DNA of 64,000 bases from Planctomycetota bacterium. Its GTDB lineage: Bacteria; Planctomycetota; Planctomycetia; Pirellulales; UBA1268. The translations under genes were made by a program, and so were the position numbers. The DNA is taken from NCBI GenBank assembly GCA_003669585.1, contig QWOQ01000008.1, positions 1 through 64,000 of the forward strand. The letters run 5' to 3'. The notes beneath the pieces are model-generated. The model did no database searches and was not told the origin of the DNA. It saw only the letters and a program-made list of their open reading frames with translations. Positions within the stretch are counted from its first letter, which is position 1. Each line of letters opens with the position of its first letter. Below, piece by piece: positions 42,509 through 51,010 of this stretch.

Positions 42509-44971
42509 TCAGACATTCGCGTTCCCAGATGACACGGGTACGGGCTTCCATGCCAGCACAACCTCTTCCACCACGACATCCATTTTTCGAGGCGATATTT
42601 CGATCGCTTCAAGCGCCACTCGATCGGGACTCGAGTCGAGTCGTATCCGATCGAGTTCCTGGTACACATCAGCTTCAAGCACTGCTTTCTTTTCCTCCAT
42701 CACCGTAAGGCTTTCTTCTGCGTGAGCGACATCGGCCTGCTGCTTCGCAGCACGACCTGCCGATCGCATAGACGTCACCGCTCGGCCGATGCTCGATGAA
42801 CTTGCGAGTCTTCGTCCAAGCACTGCTGAAAGCACCGCTCCACCAATCGACGCGAAGGTCTGCAACGATTGATTTTGTGACTCAGCTTTTTCTTTTTCCA
42901 CTTTTTGTCTAGCACGCATAATTTTGTCGTCCATGGAGGACATCTTGGACGCATGCCGGAGTCGAACGTCATCGAGCGCACGATCGCGTGATTCCTTGAG
43001 ATATTGTGATATGCGAATTCGATAATCAATCTGCGACTCACCTGGACGAGACACTTCATCGATGACATTCGTCTTCCAAAGCGTGAGTCTGCTTGATCGC
43101 GCAAGGTATCCTTTAAGCGATACTGCAAGAGAGGAAAAGCCCTTTGGTCCGGTCAGCGTTCCGGCCAGCGAACCAAATGTTCCATTTCGCGGCGCAGAAT
43201 CGGTTTGCGGCGCCTCCATTGCCGGATTTGTATTTTCCCAAACACTTTCGTCGATCGCACTCGTACCAGGAATGAGCGTGAAAACAACTCGATCGGTGTC
43301 GATTTTTGCGCTACTCTTTACGAATCGAACTCTTGCACGGCCTAGGATCATTGGCTCGTAGTACCAGATTTCATTCGTCGAAAGATCGCTCACCGGTGAG
43401 AGAAAGACTTCTTTGATTCCAGGCGGAAGGATTGGCCGTGGACCACCCTGTGTTGTCGATGGCGAGTCTCTTGGAACGATCTTGTGTTGTTGCACTGCTT
43501 CCGACATTTCAACGACAGATACTTCTGCTGTCGCTAGAGTCAATTTTTGAATTTCCTCACGCAAAAGCGGACCTCGTAAAAATGACATCGTCCACCGCGA
43601 TTGAAAAATTGTTTCCTTATCCTCGTACACACTGTGAAGCAAAAACGTCCGAGGCGAGAGCCCTGAGAGAAGCGAGTCCAGTCTGCTGCGATCGAATGAT
43701 TTCCCTGTCGATGCAGCGGCGCCTTCAAGGCCGTCGAGAACCCGGGCTTTGTCTTGCGCAGTTTGCAGGCGGCCAAGGAACCACGTGCCGGCGTTGGAGA
43801 GCCCCTTGTAATCGAGATCCACTGGATTCTGAGTAGCGAGCACCACGCCGAGACCGTAGGCGCGGGCCTGCTTGAGCAGTGTTAACAGTGGTGTCTTACT
43901 CGGCGGATTGGCGGTGGGTGGCAAATATCCAAAGACCTCATCCATGAGAAAGATCGCCTTTAGAGATGAGGTTCCGCCCTGTGTGCGCATCCATTTGATC
44001 GTCTGCCCCGCAAGAAGCGTGACAAATGCCATGCGATGCGCATCGGAAAGATGGGCAATTGAGACAATGCTCACTCTGGGTTTTCCCTGAGCAGTCCAGA
44101 GCAGTTTTCCAACATCAAGTGGCTCACCCTCGATCCATGCATCGAACCCCGGAGCTGCGGCAAGCGTGTTGAGACGGTTGGCGAGTGCAAATCGTTCGGT
44201 TGCCGGATAAAAATTTTCTATATCGAAATAGCCGACTCTCTCCATAGGCGGAGTTGCAATCGATCGCACCAGCGTTTCAAAATCGAGCTTGGGTCCCCCA
44301 TGTGGTTCGTTTTTCCAGAATGTATCGACGATTGTCGAAAGCAGAACATGTTCGCGACTCGTTCCCGGTTCAACATCGATTCCCGCCATTGCCAGAATGC
44401 CTGAGACGAGTGATCCGATTTGCTCTCTTTTTAATTCCGGGTCGTCACTCATCGCAGAAGAATCTGCGGCGAGATTCTGTAGGATTGCCAGTGGCCTACC
44501 TGCACGACTGCCCGGAGTGTAGATCGTCATATCTACCGAATCACGCAACTTTTTTATTCGCTCTAATGACTGACCGCTCGCTTCGAGTCCTTCTCGCCAC
44601 TGGTTTGCAGTGCGCTCAGCGAGTTCATCGATGGTGATGCCGGCACGAGCAGCAACGTCTTGCTCCAGCCAAGGCTTAAAGTCATCTGCGGCGAGATTGG
44701 GAAACGAAAGTAATACGTTGGCAAGATCCCCCTTTGGATCGATCACGAGCGTTGGAATCGCATCGATCGCTGCTTCTTCGATCAAATCGATGAGGAGTCC
44801 GGTCTTTCCACTTCCAGTCATACCAACACAAACCGCGTGCGTCGTGAACCGTTTGGAATCCATCAACAGCGGCACTGAGTCGGTCACTTCCGCTCCGGCT
44901 TCTACCGTGCGGCCAACGTAAAAAAGTCCAAGTCCTTCAATCGACTCGTCCGCTCTGCGTGGAGTTTTCAT
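42509..44971 (-). CDS. HerA-like (DUF87-type) P-loop ATPase with C-terminal coiled coil
   Basis: GMTGSGKTGLLIDLIEEA Walker A; VIDPKGDLANVLL; IFLMDEVFGYLPP Walker B; VLATQNPVDLDYKG. Confidence 0.85.
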   Translation of the reverse strand: MKTPRRADESIEGLGLFYVGRTVEAGAEVTDSVPLLMDSKRFTTHAVCVGMTGSGKTGLLIDLIEEAAIDAIPTLVIDPKGDLANVLLSFPNLAADDFKPWLEQDVAARAGITIDELAERTANQWREGLEASGQSLERIKKLRDSVDMTIYTPGSRAGRPLAILQNLAADSSAMSDDPELKREQIGSLVSGILAMAGIDVEPGTSREHVLLSTIVDTFWKNEPHGGPKLDFETLVRSIATPPMERVGYFDIENFYPATERFALANRLNTLAAAPGFDAWIEGEPLDVGKLLWTAQGKPRVSIVSIAHLSDAHRMAFVTLLAGQTIKWMRTQGGTSSLKAIFLMDEVFGYLPPTANPPSKTPLLTLLKQARAYGLGVVLATQNPVDLDYKGLSNAGTWFLGRLQTAQDKARVLDGLEGAAASTGKSFDRSRLDSLLSGLSPRTFLLHSVYEDKETIFQSRWTMSFLRGPLLREEIQKLTLATAEVSVVEMSEAVQQHKIVPRDSPSTTQGGPRPILPPGIKEVFLSPVSDLSTNEIWYYEPMILGRARVRFVKSSAKIDTDRVVFTLIPGTSAIDESVWENTNPAMEAPQTDSAPRNGTFGSLAGTLTGPKGFSSLAVSLKGYLARSSRLTLWKTNVIDEVSRPGESQIDYRIRISQYLKESRDRALDDVRLRHASKMSSMDDKIMRARQKVEKEKAESQNQSLQTFASIGGAVLSAVLGRRLASSSSIGRAVTSMRSAGRAAKQQADVAHAEESLTVMEEKKAVLEADVYQELDRIRLDSSPDRVALEAIEISPRKMDVVVEEVVLAWKPVPVSSGNANV

Positions 44972-45117
44972 AACGTCCCTCTCATTGCGTCGCACCTCGT
45001 CTGGACATCTCACGATTTATTCGCAAGACAGACTCCTGCCAGAAGTCGTTGGAACGATCCGATCGTACTCGCTGGACGTTCTCCGTCATCGGACGTGAGA
45101 TTCTTTCCGAATAATTC

Positions 45118-46569
45118 TTACGGAATAGCTGGAACGTGGAAATCCAGATGACCTTCACTCGATGCCGATTCATTCATCAGAGAATTCGCAGCTTGTTCAA
45201 GCGAATGAACCAGGCGTCCCGGAAAAAGACCAAAGAAGAGAAGCACCGCCAGAAGTCCCAGCATCGCAACGCGTTCTCGCAGCAGAATTCCATGACTCGG
45301 ACCGTCGATCGCCACTGGTCCTCCAAAAACGTGAAACCATCCGCGTAAAACAGCAATGCCAGAGAGCACCGTTGCAGCAATCACAAACAGTCCCGCATGC
45401 AGTTGATCGTCAAGGCATCCCGATACAATCAGATCGTCCGCAACAAAGGAAAGCGTTCCTGGAACGCCAATGATCGCGAGTCCGAAGAGCAGAAAAAATG
45501 CTGCGAGCAGTGGTGCGTCTCGAAACCTGCCTTGCAGCGATTCAATCGATAGGCTGCCAGCTCGACTCTCAATCGCCCATGCCACAAGCCCGAGGCCTGT
45601 AAGCGACACTCCACTGGAGATCCAGACGCACAGTGCTCCATTGAGTTCCATTGCCACGGTGCCCGAGAGTCCGGCAAGAACCATTGCCGATTGACTCATG
45701 GCCAGCGTTCCAACGAGGCCCTTCACATCTTTCTGCACAGTGGCGAGCGCGGCACCATACGCCGCTGTTATCAGTGCTGCCTGCGACAGCACGATGAGTT
45801 CCCATCCAACCCCATCGGCATGGCCAACTAACAATCTCATCGCGGTGTAGGCAGCAACCTGTGGCATTGTCGCAGCCAGGGCCGTCGACATCGGCGCTGC
45901 TGAAAAAAGTGCTGGATACCAAGAATGAAAAGGGACGATCCCTTTTCGCACGAGCACGGCCATGGCCACGAGCCATCCGCCGACATTGCCAATCGTTCCT
46001 GAACCGGGTTCCCAAGGAGGATCGCCAACCAGCATGCAGGTTCCAAGCGTCATACACACAACCGCCGGAAACATTGCAATACAATAGACCCGTGCCACAG
46101 GCCGCCCTCCGGGCATCGCTCGAATAGAGAACCATGTTGGCACAGCGGTCAAAATCCACAGACCAACAATCGCGAGCGGATGGGCAGTACAAAAAAGTGC
46201 CAGCGTCATACCGCTGCCAATGAGAATTCGCCTTGCCGAGGCGATATCAAAAAATCTTCTTGGTGCCACCAGCACAATTGCAAGATGCACCAATGCAACA
46301 TAGGGAAGCAGAAGCCCTGTCACACCGTCGATATCAACAAGCGATCCGCCTCCCATGCTATCACCGATCTCGACAGGAATAAGTGGCCCGATATTCCAGA
46401 GAATCGTCAACACTGCGCTTGAAACGAGTGACACAACAGCCGAAACAACCGCTGGAATTCGTGGACTCGATCGAAACAGGCCCATGCCCAGAACAACCGT
46501 GCCCACCAGCGGCGCAGCCACTGTTATCCCCGCCGCCAGAAGCATGAGTTCCGAGAGAGAGAATCTCAC
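45118..46569 (-). CDS. NuoM-like proton-conducting membrane subunit (complex I antiporter family)
   Basis: Multi-TM; KGIVPFHSWYPALFSAAPMSTALAATMPQVAAYTAMRLL. GTG start at 46569 overlaps the upstream stop by 4 nt (GTGA). Confidence 0.85.
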   Translation of the reverse strand: MRFSLSELMLLAAGITVAAPLVGTVVLGMGLFRSSPRIPAVVSAVVSLVSSAVLTILWNIGPLIPVEIGDSMGGGSLVDIDGVTGLLLPYVALVHLAIVLVAPRRFFDIASARRILIGSGMTLALFCTAHPLAIVGLWILTAVPTWFSIRAMPGGRPVARVYCIAMFPAVVCMTLGTCMLVGDPPWEPGSGTIGNVGGWLVAMAVLVRKGIVPFHSWYPALFSAAPMSTALAATMPQVAAYTAMRLLVGHADGVGWELIVLSQAALITAAYGAALATVQKDVKGLVGTLAMSQSAMVLAGLSGTVAMELNGALCVWISSGVSLTGLGLVAWAIESRAGSLSIESLQGRFRDAPLLAAFFLLFGLAIIGVPGTLSFVADDLIVSGCLDDQLHAGLFVIAATVLSGIAVLRGWFHVFGGPVAIDGPSHGILLRERVAMLGLLAVLLFFGLFPGRLVHSLEQAANSLMNESASSEGHLDFHVPAIP

Positions 46570-47921
46570 TTCGGTCCTCCCCTCGACGAATCCGTTGGAT
46601 CGCGTCCTAGCCACATGATCAATCGTTCTTCGCCGCGAGCTGCGAATTCAAACAATCTTCGGACTGGTAAGACAATCAACCGCACCATCGAGACATCCTG
46701 ATACCCGCGCTCAAGAGCAAGTCGATAAAGCCAAACCTGCGACCTTTCTGAAAGCAGATGCCTTGGCGACCAAGCCTCAGACCCCGGATGCCCACCGAGC
46801 GCGGCTTCAAGTTCATGCCGATCATGCAACGCGGAAGGTGATCTCAAAATCTGAAGGCTTCGCAGGATTGCATGACTCACAACATGAACGAGTGGAATCA
46901 CTCTCCAACCAAGTCCTATTTCAACAAAAATAATTCCTGACTGCATCATCGACGCATAGGCAAGCATACTTTTAAGATCCGTTTGAACGCGACCGACCAC
47001 AGAAGCATGGAGAGCTGTAACAGAACCGATTACCACCATCGCCCATTGCACCGCTGGAGCTTGGTCAAGCAGCGACTCACATCGCAGCAATACGTAGGCA
47101 CCGGCATGGATCGACAACGCTCCGTAAAAAATTGCGCTCGATGGTGTCGGGCCCTCCATTGCGCGGGCCAGCCAGCCGGAAAATGGAACCTGTGCGCTTT
47201 TTCCCATTGCGGCAAAGACCAGTAAGATCGACACACCCACCGCCACGTTCGTGGAGACGAGACAGTGAGCATTGGGCCAAGTACCACTGAAGAGTTTTCC
47301 GAAGTCCCCAGAGCCAACGGCTGCATGCACCACGACTCCGGCTGTTAAGAGACCGATGTCGCAAATGCGGTAGGTTGTATAGGCACGGAGCGAAGCATTG
47401 ACGGCGTTTGATCGTTCATGAAAAAAACCGATTAAAAGCGCCGACGAAAGGCCAAGAAATTCCCAACCCGCAAAAAGCACGTCGATGCTTCCAGCAAGCA
47501 CCATCAAATTCATGCCGGTTCCAAAAAGTGTGAGGAGTAAAAAAAACCGGGTAAATCCCGGTTCTCGATGCAGATATTTTCCGGCAAACGCGTTGACCAA
47601 GGCACACAGACCCGTTGAAAAACAGACGTAGGGCACGCTCAATCCATCTGCAACCAGATCGATCGTCGCTGCGTGATGCCCAACGGAAAACCAAGTTCCA
47701 AGATGAACGACCTGCGATGGAAAACCTTGCAACCCAAGCGTGACAAGTGTGGCGAGAGCCGCCATAAATCCGGATGTAAATCCGGCTCCAACCACTCGGG
47801 TCGTAGCTTGTTCTGAAAGTGGTCGCCCCAAAAGTGCCGGCAGTCCGATGAGTGCAAACGTCATTGCTGGTGCGGCCAACTGACAGACAACCAAATAATA
47901 AATACCATCCTGCATGCTCAT
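46566..47921 (-). CDS. dabB: NuoL-like/DabB-type membrane subunit
   Basis: MGKSAQVPFSGWLARAMEGPTPSSAIFYGALSIHAGAYVLLR antiporter motif; adjacent to DUF2309 gene with 4-nt ATGA overlap. Confidence 0.85.
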   Translation of the reverse strand: MSMQDGIYYLVVCQLAAPAMTFALIGLPALLGRPLSEQATTRVVGAGFTSGFMAALATLVTLGLQGFPSQVVHLGTWFSVGHHAATIDLVADGLSVPYVCFSTGLCALVNAFAGKYLHREPGFTRFFLLLTLFGTGMNLMVLAGSIDVLFAGWEFLGLSSALLIGFFHERSNAVNASLRAYTTYRICDIGLLTAGVVVHAAVGSGDFGKLFSGTWPNAHCLVSTNVAVGVSILLVFAAMGKSAQVPFSGWLARAMEGPTPSSAIFYGALSIHAGAYVLLRCESLLDQAPAVQWAMVVIGSVTALHASVVGRVQTDLKSMLAYASMMQSGIIFVEIGLGWRVIPLVHVVSHAILRSLQILRSPSALHDRHELEAALGGHPGSEAWSPRHLLSERSQVWLYRLALERGYQDVSMVRLIVLPVRRLFEFAARGEERLIMWLGRDPTDSSRGGPK

Positions 47922-50900
47922 GAGGGCAGATCCCTCGCTGCTGGTAGATTTTCCATCGCCGCTAGCACCCGAGCCGGAGAAAGATGTTCGCGGTGCCCGG
48001 CATACCATGAGATCGATCGATCGACGACCGAAATGTTGATCGACTCTGGAAGGTAGGGAATAAATTTCCCATGCTCAAAGACCGAAAGGGCACCGGTATC
48101 CGGATCCCATGCAACCACTTGCATCCACTCATTCAGTGCCAGTCGTTTGACCATAGGAGTCTTCTCAACGGCACAAAGGATTCGTTCGGGAGTTGATTCG
48201 ATAACGACCAACAATCGGACTGGTTCGTGAATTTCCACCATCTGCCAAGGCAGACCCGTACGCAAGTCACTTGCGTGACCGTCCATGACGCCGAGCAGAC
48301 CGGTGATATTATGCGGAAGTTTTGTGCCGCATCCGTAGCCAATCGAATCGACAACGGAAAAAAAGTATTCCAGATTAATGCCCACTCCTACTGGCGCCAC
48401 CGCCGCAAGCGTTCGCGTAAGAATGTCATTCTCAATATCGATCGAGGAATCATAGGAAACAAGAAATGCACGGCGATCAAGAAAAAGACCTCTTGATCGC
48501 CAGCGTCTGCCGATGATGCACACAGCATTGGTCGCGTGCCCGAGTTCGGGTCGCACTTGCGCAAGATCGCCAGCTCTTGCCTCAACATGGCGATGCGCCT
48601 CAAGTGGGGTAATGTCGAGTGGCGCAGTTTCAAATCGCCTGCAGCGTTCATGCGCATTGGAAATGCTGACGCCACGAACCATCGCTTCAAGATCCGCAAA
48701 TTCCGATGCGTGACTTGCAGGCATTCTCTCGGCATCAAACCATCGCACTTCGTCACAGCACGTATCGAGCATTCCACCGATAAATTGTGTGTCTTCGGGA
48801 ATCAACAGCCCTTCGTCTGCCAAACTCCGCCGAATTCGCGGGTCGTTCGCCATGGTGGCAAAGGCTCTTGCGTTGGGTCCGCCACGGCCACCGCCGCACG
48901 CGCCGCAGTCGTAAGCACTTTCGTGCGGATTGTTCAGGCTCGCCGATCCATGTCCTAACACCGCCACAAGTCTCGCAAATCGTTTTGTCAATCCGATGTC
49001 TTCGAGCACTCGACGAACGATCGCTGTCATTTCATTCACATCGAAGCCTGGGTGAGTTCCATCTGGCAACAAATGCGGATTCCTTTTTTCAAGCAAAAGT
49101 CTGGTTGGCACTCGTTTTCTCGAAATCGCAGCGGCAGTGGCTCCAAGCCTCGCGGTAAATCTCGGGAACACCACGCGGGCTACCAGCGGCACTGCGGCAA
49201 TCGCCCCGGCAAGTGCCGTGAAGAGTCCGCCTCGCACGAGCGTGCGACTGCTATTGGACATCGTGCCCATGATCGTGCCGTACCGTCGTCTCCACGCCTG
49301 TCTCGTGCGGTGCTCATGTTCGGCGTGCGTTTCTGGAACTTCTAAAACCGTATGCTTCGGACGAATGACAATTGGACAGAGTGGCGAAGTATGCCAGTCG
49401 TCAATGCCGCGGTAGTACATCGCTACAGCAAAGAAACCCGCCGTTCCAAATGTCTCAAAGGATGATCCAAGTTCTTCGAAGTGGCGACGGAATGATTCAC
49501 ATCGCTCGTCGATACAAAATATCGCCTGCGCTTGTGGTCGTACGCCAACGGGCGCCTGAGTGACTCGAACCTGCGAAGCCAGGGCGTCGAGTATTTGAAT
49601 TCGATGATGTCGCTCAAATGCCAGATGAAAAATCCGACGTCGTGCCACACCATTGAATTCAGCAATCGCCGATTCCAATCGAATTAACTCATTTTCGTCG
49701 AGCGCACGAATGTTTCGGGCTGTGAGTCCAACGACCTGCGATATCTGATGGAGCAAAAACGCTCTGGAAAGGCCTCCCGGACCTCGTCGCGGAGGGTATC
49801 GATCTTGCAATTCGATCCACAGGCCGGAAATCTTTTTCGTTTTGTCAAAAACTCCGCGCCACAATCGTTGCGCGGCCCACTCCACAGCAACCCGATCGCA
49901 CATGAGTCGAAGGGCAAGAAAATCGGCTAGTCTTGCCGGTACTGCGACCACAGGAACGCGATCTGGACGCTGTTCAATTTGGTATATCATTCCCGCCCAC
50001 CCGCGAAGAGAAAGCAGCGACTGTCTGATGAACACCTGCCACTGTGGCTGCGGAATACCCAACCGTTCGAGTTCTGCGACGATCACGTCGATTGGATCCA
50101 TGCCTTGCGCTGCCTGAAGCGCATCGGGCAAGGCAATATTCCACGGTTCTAAGGGGCCATTTTTTCCGGAATAGATCTTCGACACCGCTTCAAACAGGCC
50201 CCGCTCGCGACCTGGCATAGGCCATGCTGCAATTCCTTGATCAAGAAAGGCCGCGCTCCATCGAATAAGAAGGGGATTGACAAACGCATCGAGATCGAGC
50301 GACGGTTCGATCGCCTTTATGAGATCGCGGTGACGCACCGGCGGCCTGACATGCACAATCGATGGTCGGGTGAGAGCCACGGCCTCGACGCAAGCATGCC
50401 ACAACTCGCTTGCCACTCGCCGTTCACTGGCAAACTGTTTATGAAAACTGCCACGAGCAAAAGTTTCACGACGGACCGCATCGTCCTCATTTCCGAAAAA
50501 CGTTGAATCCCTATCATCGACATTCGCGAAGGCGATTGCGTCTTCGTTCAACAATTGTCTTCGTACCGACGGATCGAGGTCCGTCCGCAAGCATTCGACG
50601 ACATTGCTTTCCGTAAGCGTCCAACGAACCGCCGTGTCATCTTCTTGGCGAATCGCATGAAAGAGAATGGCGCGTTGCAGTGACTTCCGTGTGATGCGAC
50701 CTCCGGCGAGCTGTTGGTCACCTTGAACCAAACTCTCCGCATCGAGCACGGCATCCACATCCTCACTGCGAATACGTCCTTGAGCAAGCTCTTCTCTGTA
50801 ACGGGTTTCGGTGAGAAACGGCTCGGTCCCAAAGATGTGCGAGGCGTGAATCAGTGCCTCTTCAAAGGGTTCTTCCTCAAAGGCGTGCAGCGTGTTGTGA

Positions 50901-51010
50901 TGAATAAAAACATCGATCGGCCCCTGGGCTGGCAAATAATGAGTAGCGTGATCAATGGCGTTTTGGCAATGCTCGCGCGCGAGAAGATTCGACAACGGCG
51001 GTAGTGTCAT
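47918..51010 (-). CDS. dabA: DabA-type inorganic carbon transporter subunit (DUF2309/UPF0753)
   Basis: [17 protein letters not shown] (CxD) and [33 protein letters not shown] (H...C), the beta-carbonic-anhydrase-like metal-site motifs of DabA; about 1030 aa. Confidence 0.93.
   Translation of the reverse strand: [1030 protein letters not shown]

Follow-up and report, generated by a model that had tools for sequence, protein, structure and literature searches.

The analyzed stretch of DNA, 64,000 nucleotides from a Planctomycetota bacterium (assembly GCA_003669585.1, contig QWOQ01000008.1), is called the window below. It carries an operon in which dabA is followed by dabB and then by a gene for a NuoM-like protein, with each pair of genes overlapping by 4 bp:

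51010-47918, minus strand: dabA, 1030 aa, class II (long, dabA-first), beta-carbonic-anhydrase-like subunit
47921-46566, minus strand: dabB, 451 aa, NuoL-like with TM1-11 only, PF00361 and PF00662
46569-45118, minus strand: third subunit gene, 483 aa, NuoM-like, PF00361 (E 1.9e-20)
47921-47918, minus strand: ATGA stop/start overlap of dabA and dabB, read from the sequence
46569-46566, minus strand: GTGA stop/start overlap of dabB and the third gene, read from the sequence

This order and both overlaps are as first described for the locus in the original prediction, and its proposal that the three proteins are produced jointly is supported by the 4-bp overlaps, which make co-translation probable. 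Overlap of dabB with the third gene was found in 47 of 58 such pairs from relatives, mostly by 4 bp, and the order dabA-dabB-third gene was found also across Planctomycetota, Verrucomicrobiota, Myxococcota and Acidobacteriota, a recurrence that is far beyond chance. The neighbors of the operon are unrelated to it, with genes for a HerA-like ATPase, PurU (purU) and a sulfatase downstream and tRNA genes and tuf upstream; no SulP (COG0659) gene was found beside the operon in the window. The HerA-like ATPase (834 aa, window 42509-45013), which is encoded directly downstream, has weak matches to known families.

The dabA product covered the full PF10070 profile (E 8.9e-237, 788.6 bits against a cut-off of 25) and matched DabA2 of Halothiobacillus neapolitanus (PDB 9rd0_A) with an E-value of 2.4e-68. 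Its AlphaFold model had a mean pLDDT of 80, and a fold search with DabA gave zero matches in a library in which 9rd0 did not appear. The positions of DabA that bear on catalysis and coupling are the following:

49508-49516, minus strand: C499, (I500), D501, zinc Cys and catalytic Asp, equivalent to DabA2 C351/D353; in 93/93 class II long DabAs
49504-49502, minus strand: R503, equivalent to DabA2 R355, Asp-Arg dyad; in 93/93 class II long DabAs
48950-48952, minus strand: H687, zinc ligand, equivalent to DabA2 H524; in 93/93 class II long DabAs
48905-48907, minus strand: C702, zinc ligand, equivalent to DabA2 C539; in 93/93 class II long DabAs
49214-49216, minus strand: A599 in the membrane finger, at the site of the essential Glu444 of DAB2
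48536-48538, minus strand: H825, at the site of DAB2 Leu658, the beta-carbonic anhydrase (beta-CA) transition-state position

The catalytic motifs had been predicted to be intact, and they align with DabA2 throughout (C499-I-D501-x-R503), the 15 residues between H687 and C702 being exactly the spacing of DabA2 H524 and C539. No characterized class II member was found in the open-access literature, which leaves room for a non-carbon system in which DabA acts on another small substrate; given the invariant zinc ligands and Asp-Arg dyad, and the SulP and P-II neighbors described below, such a system appears extremely improbable. At the site of DAB2 His585, part of an active-site water network, the window's DabA has Leu748 (window 48767-48769), whereas most relatives have His; Leu, Gln or Arg occurs there in 12 of the 93 class II long DabAs.

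In a DabA tree built by a quick method, dabB-first loci grouped with DabA2 (class I) and were separated from dabA-first loci (class II) with an SH-aLRT value of 100, while the three-gene members formed one side of a branch with a support of 79. The diagnostic sites of both DabA and DabB follow this split. The class I controls included plasmid-borne loci from Pseudomonadota, Actinomycetota, Bacillota and Halobacteria, and the plasmid-borne DABs examined were of class I only.

The membrane finger distinguishes the two classes. In DAB2, Glu444 of this finger sits at the place of NuoL's TM12 Lys-Asp, and its replacement abolishes activity (PMC13144422). The coupling model that accompanied the DAB2 structure in 2026 was built on Glu444, and Leu658 was called strictly conserved (PMC13144422). 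The window's DabA has the finger, modeled as helices 561-587, 591-614 and 616-630 with pLDDT values of about 54-69 and with a hydrophobic segment at residues 596-614. At the Glu444 site, Asp or Glu was found in 0 of 93 class II long DabAs, versus Glu in 17 of 18 class I DabAs and in both DabAs of the BL loci (L120 and L121). Because none of the 93 proteins has Asp or Glu at any position of the finger helix, this result is robust to misalignment. Similarly, the Leu658 site is His in 90 of 93 class II long and 8 of 8 other class II DabAs, and Leu in all 18 class I and both BL proteins. The L658Q substitution created no in vitro activity in DAB2 (PMC13144422), so His825 may matter little.

The locus had been described as a DAB-family system with an additional antiporter-family gene, which is borne out; its DabB needs a correction, as it is not a complete NuoL-like protein. 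The PF00361 match of the window's DabB ends at profile position 229 of 294, and the protein itself ends after the TM11 equivalent, with a 97-residue tail that has no hydrophobic segment; TM12-15 are missing. Three-gene DabBs as a group extend 89-120 aa beyond the TM11 basic residue, and 57 of 60 have no hydrophobic segment there. The corresponding regions are 175-226 aa with mostly 3-4 hydrophobic segments in class I and 277-425 aa with 4-9 segments in two-gene class II DabBs; in these related two-gene class II loci, TM12-14 are carried by DabB itself. Two such operons, at L123 and L124, form a divergent pair, one dabA-dabB facing away from the other.

Within its TM1-11 portion, DabB retains the NuoL E144/R175/D178/K229 set, including a TM5 glutamate:

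47460-47462, minus strand: DabB E154, equivalent to NuoL Glu144 (TM5); DabB2 has Ile151

Glu occupies this site in all 60 three-gene DabBs and in all 8 of the other class II DabBs, compared with I, A, V, L, T, G or F in all 18 class I proteins (Glu in 0/18). In addition, class II proteins have Tyr, Ala and Arg at the positions of DabB2 His260, Ser316 and Lys347. That the TM5 Glu is retained merely owing to a neighboring subunit, in the manner of complex I, is an insufficient explanation, since two-gene class II DabBs retain it too.

For the third subunit, a full 14-TM antiporter fold was predicted (AlphaFold pLDDT 93.5), with complex I NuoM as the best PDB match (8e9g_M, TM-score 0.86). It reached 117 bits against NCBIfam NuoM, where the best model's cut-off is 550, and 109 bits against TIGR01972 (cut-off 264). 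A stray complex I nuoM was rejected as its identity, because two separate complex I-like loci, 28-29% identical, sit elsewhere in the genome. One acidic pair is prominent:

45433-45438, minus strand: D378-D379, TM12 acid, with D379 one position past NuoM Glu407 in the alignment

The D379 site was acidic in 52 of 52 relatives, and an acid at the same +1 position is legible by eye in the tails of two-gene class II DabBs. Other conserved residues are Arg208, Arg/Lys283, Arg336, Glu334 and Glu432; the N-terminal half is poorly conserved. The TM8 Lys and TM11 His are absent in 52/52 third subunits, the TM5 Glu is also absent, and Arg replaces the TM7 Lys in 48/52. A specific descent of the subunit's TM12-14 from a DabB tail was considered and set aside, as a TM12-14 sub-profile did not discriminate, giving 50-53 bits with the best two-gene class II DabB tails and 53 bits with a mycobacterial NuoM.

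These residues bear on what the third subunit does. The original prediction had it form an extra, second channel, with DabB and the NuoM-like subunit each moving an ion and more ions being spent per bicarbonate. Complex I and Mrp use several antiporter-type subunits, and this precedent, like the complete predicted 14-TM fold, speaks for a two-channel DAB. The same idea was put forward in general form by Klimchuk et al. in 2017 (PMC5700660). However, the proton path within the third subunit has decayed at TM5, TM7, TM8 and TM11, which makes a second independent channel less likely, and DabB alone does not contain a full channel; overall, we consider this explanation rather improbable. The degenerate proton path and the variable N-terminal half would agree better with a purely structural subunit, which stabilizes the truncated DabB or anchors DabA and transfers no ion. 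The invariantly acidic TM12 site and the five further conserved charged positions exceed what packing needs, and a structural role alone therefore seems unlikely. Thus, the third gene probably supplies what the truncated DabB lacks rather than adding a second channel.

A scan of genome contigs, from which 80 loci were kept, showed how regularly the third gene accompanies the other two. Among the 61 loci with at least 2.2 kb of sequence after dabA, dabB and then a NuoM-like gene followed dabA in 57. All four exception genomes carry a third gene elsewhere (437-696 bits, with complex I-type paralogues at no more than 98 bits), and each of them has a short dabB that adjoins a third gene. Loci L015-L030 were grouped as three-gene by DabA class, the third gene being within sequence reach only at L129 and L130. 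The third gene, first thought to be unusual, is instead the rule and behaves as an obligate partner in the dabA-first three-gene class; the adjacency in 57/61 loci and its presence in the other four genomes reject a chance neighbor. At one locus (L126:1230-3656, G359:C24), a natural 808-aa fusion joins a short DabB (residues 43-467) to the C half of a third subunit (529-802, E 2.8e-33), which argues for physical association of the two. At another (L153, G393:C20:11662-13047), dabA is followed directly by a NuoM-like gene with no dabB between; elsewhere in that genome, at L151, lie a dabB and one more third gene.

Class II DabAs have no finger Glu and three-gene DabBs have no TM12-15, and most simply, both the helices and a TM12 acid would come from the third subunit. 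We propose with moderate confidence that class II DAB carries out gradient-driven, zinc-dependent CO2 hydration and that its membrane part is a split antiporter channel made of DabB and the third subunit. DabA would hydrate CO2 on the cytoplasmic side, coupled to the membrane and driven by a proton (or sodium) gradient, so that bicarbonate is formed in the cell. DabB would contribute the TM1-11 half, with a track of TM5 Glu, TM7 Lys and the TM9-11 Lys-His-Arg residues, among them His346, His350 and Arg354. The third subunit would pack on DabB and stand in for TM12-15, and its TM12 acid, at the outer half-channel, would take over the job of DAB2 Glu444; the DabA finger would still insert, as a hydrophobic lever only. 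By analogy with complex I the third subunit could dock on the TM5 side of DabB, and if it replaces TM12-15 it would lie on the opposite side. Complex formation, docking face, ion identity, flow direction and DIC function are all what we infer from these comparisons.

More tentatively, PF10070 systems may comprise two mechanistic classes, the class II path being made of a TM5 Glu and a TM12 acid distributed over two proteins, with a beta-CA-like His in DabA and with the finger outside proton transfer. Since the residue swaps fall along the division between two old clades, they amount to little more than a single evolutionary split and should not be counted as many independent events, and a class-wide residue correlation does not prove compensation. 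The BL loci fall in class I by all of the DabA sites, with a DabA of about 1100 aa and an 848-883 aa DabB that includes an extra NuoM-like half; they keep Glu444 and have no acid at the 407/408 positions. As a single comparison, this pattern fits the compensation idea.

The host genome (4.27 Mb, 95% complete) encodes one DabA, and the nearest relative's DabA among those compared is about 68% identical. No RuBisCO large subunit was detected in it, and a heterotrophic host, as had been expected, is the simplest reading. A likely role there would be to provide bicarbonate for carboxylases at low CO2. The genome also encodes three beta-carbonic anhydrases, one fused to a SulP permease (782 aa; L148:3345-5693, G000:C1, around 584344-586692), and two SulP genes lie away from the operon. 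With three beta-CAs already present, it is not obvious why the host would need a DAB, which counts against the class II DAB explanation. Among relatives, a SulP-type gene cluster flanks the three-gene module in 22 of 67, and 4 of 4 members tested matched PF00916; SulP genes, of which some include P-II or beta-CA domains, adjoin modules or share the genome. One SulP permease that has a P-II domain at its C terminus, encoded directly downstream of a three-gene module (L043:9176-11161), is a possible built-in regulator of bicarbonate uptake.

The other carbonic anhydrases and the SulP-CA fusion also speak for a system that would run in reverse, with CO2/bicarbonate chemistry powering ion export or pH homeostasis in place of carbon uptake. 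Gating may differ as well, given the His at the beta-CA transition-state position and the complex-I-like TM5 Glu of DabB, and an exergonic pump was proposed in PMC5700660. Relatives that have been assayed, on the other hand, build up DIC or can rescue cells deficient in CA (PMC13144422; PMC6689103), and reverse operation appears highly unlikely.

If the proposed split-channel reading is true, class II is a second way to couple an ion gradient to CO2 hydration, and bacteria would seem to have found no fewer than two ways of powering the DAB pump. The DAB2 model rests on Glu444, and here is a widespread natural class that lacks both Glu444 and Leu658 and has its membrane helices shared out between two proteins. 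Set side by side, the two classes reduce the question of how ion flow powers CO2 hydration to a few residue swaps that can be tested. The three-gene module is also an added part for carbon-concentrating designs.

The survey of related loci showed the third gene to be a regular companion, in an arrangement already known since 2017: the ybcC-nuoL-nuoM-sulfate permease operons of COGNAT 'clade C' (Klimchuk et al., PMC5700660) are very probably the same thing. That article described neighborhoods in which ybcC lies upstream of a nuoL homologue, often with COG1008 NuoM and COG0659 SulP, and it suggested, without a test there, that more membrane subunits mean more ions. Its main text treats gene neighborhoods only; truncation, residues and fusions were not analyzed there, and the function was then unknown. 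The window operon has the clade C order, a ybcC upstream of a nuoL homologue with a NuoM gene, and lacks the SulP neighbor, which is frequent in the clade and not universal. No later account of the three-gene form was found in the open-access literature; what appears new is the rewiring of the machine.

MpsAB of Staphylococcus aureus (PMC6689103, PMC8552792) likewise belongs to a heterotroph, and its DabA and DabB homologues replace or complement carbonic anhydrase. It differs in having two functional genes, mpsC being no part of it, and a staphylococcal relative (L144, S. pettenkoferi) has the class I residue at each of the diagnostic sites. DAB1 of H. neapolitanus (hneap_0907-0909) also has three genes, but its third protein is a small hypothetical transmembrane protein and not a 14-TM NuoM-like one (PMC13144422). 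With the NuoL-NuoM pair of complex I, the three-gene DAB shares the fold of both membrane subunits and, in DabB, the NuoL set of charged residues; in contrast to complex I, it has no redox arm and scores below the NCBIfam NuoL and NuoM cut-offs. DAB2 of H. neapolitanus (PDB 9rd0, PMC13144422) has in common with class II a PF10070 DabA with the C-x-D-x-R, H and C zinc site, a hydrophobic finger and a NuoL-like DabB TM1-11. In contrast to DAB2, whose DabB has 15 TM helices, class II has dabA first, a DabB without TM12-15 and a separate NuoM-like subunit, together with a finger lacking Glu444, His for Leu658, Glu for Ile151, and Tyr, Ala and Arg in place of DabB2 His260, Ser316 and Lys347.
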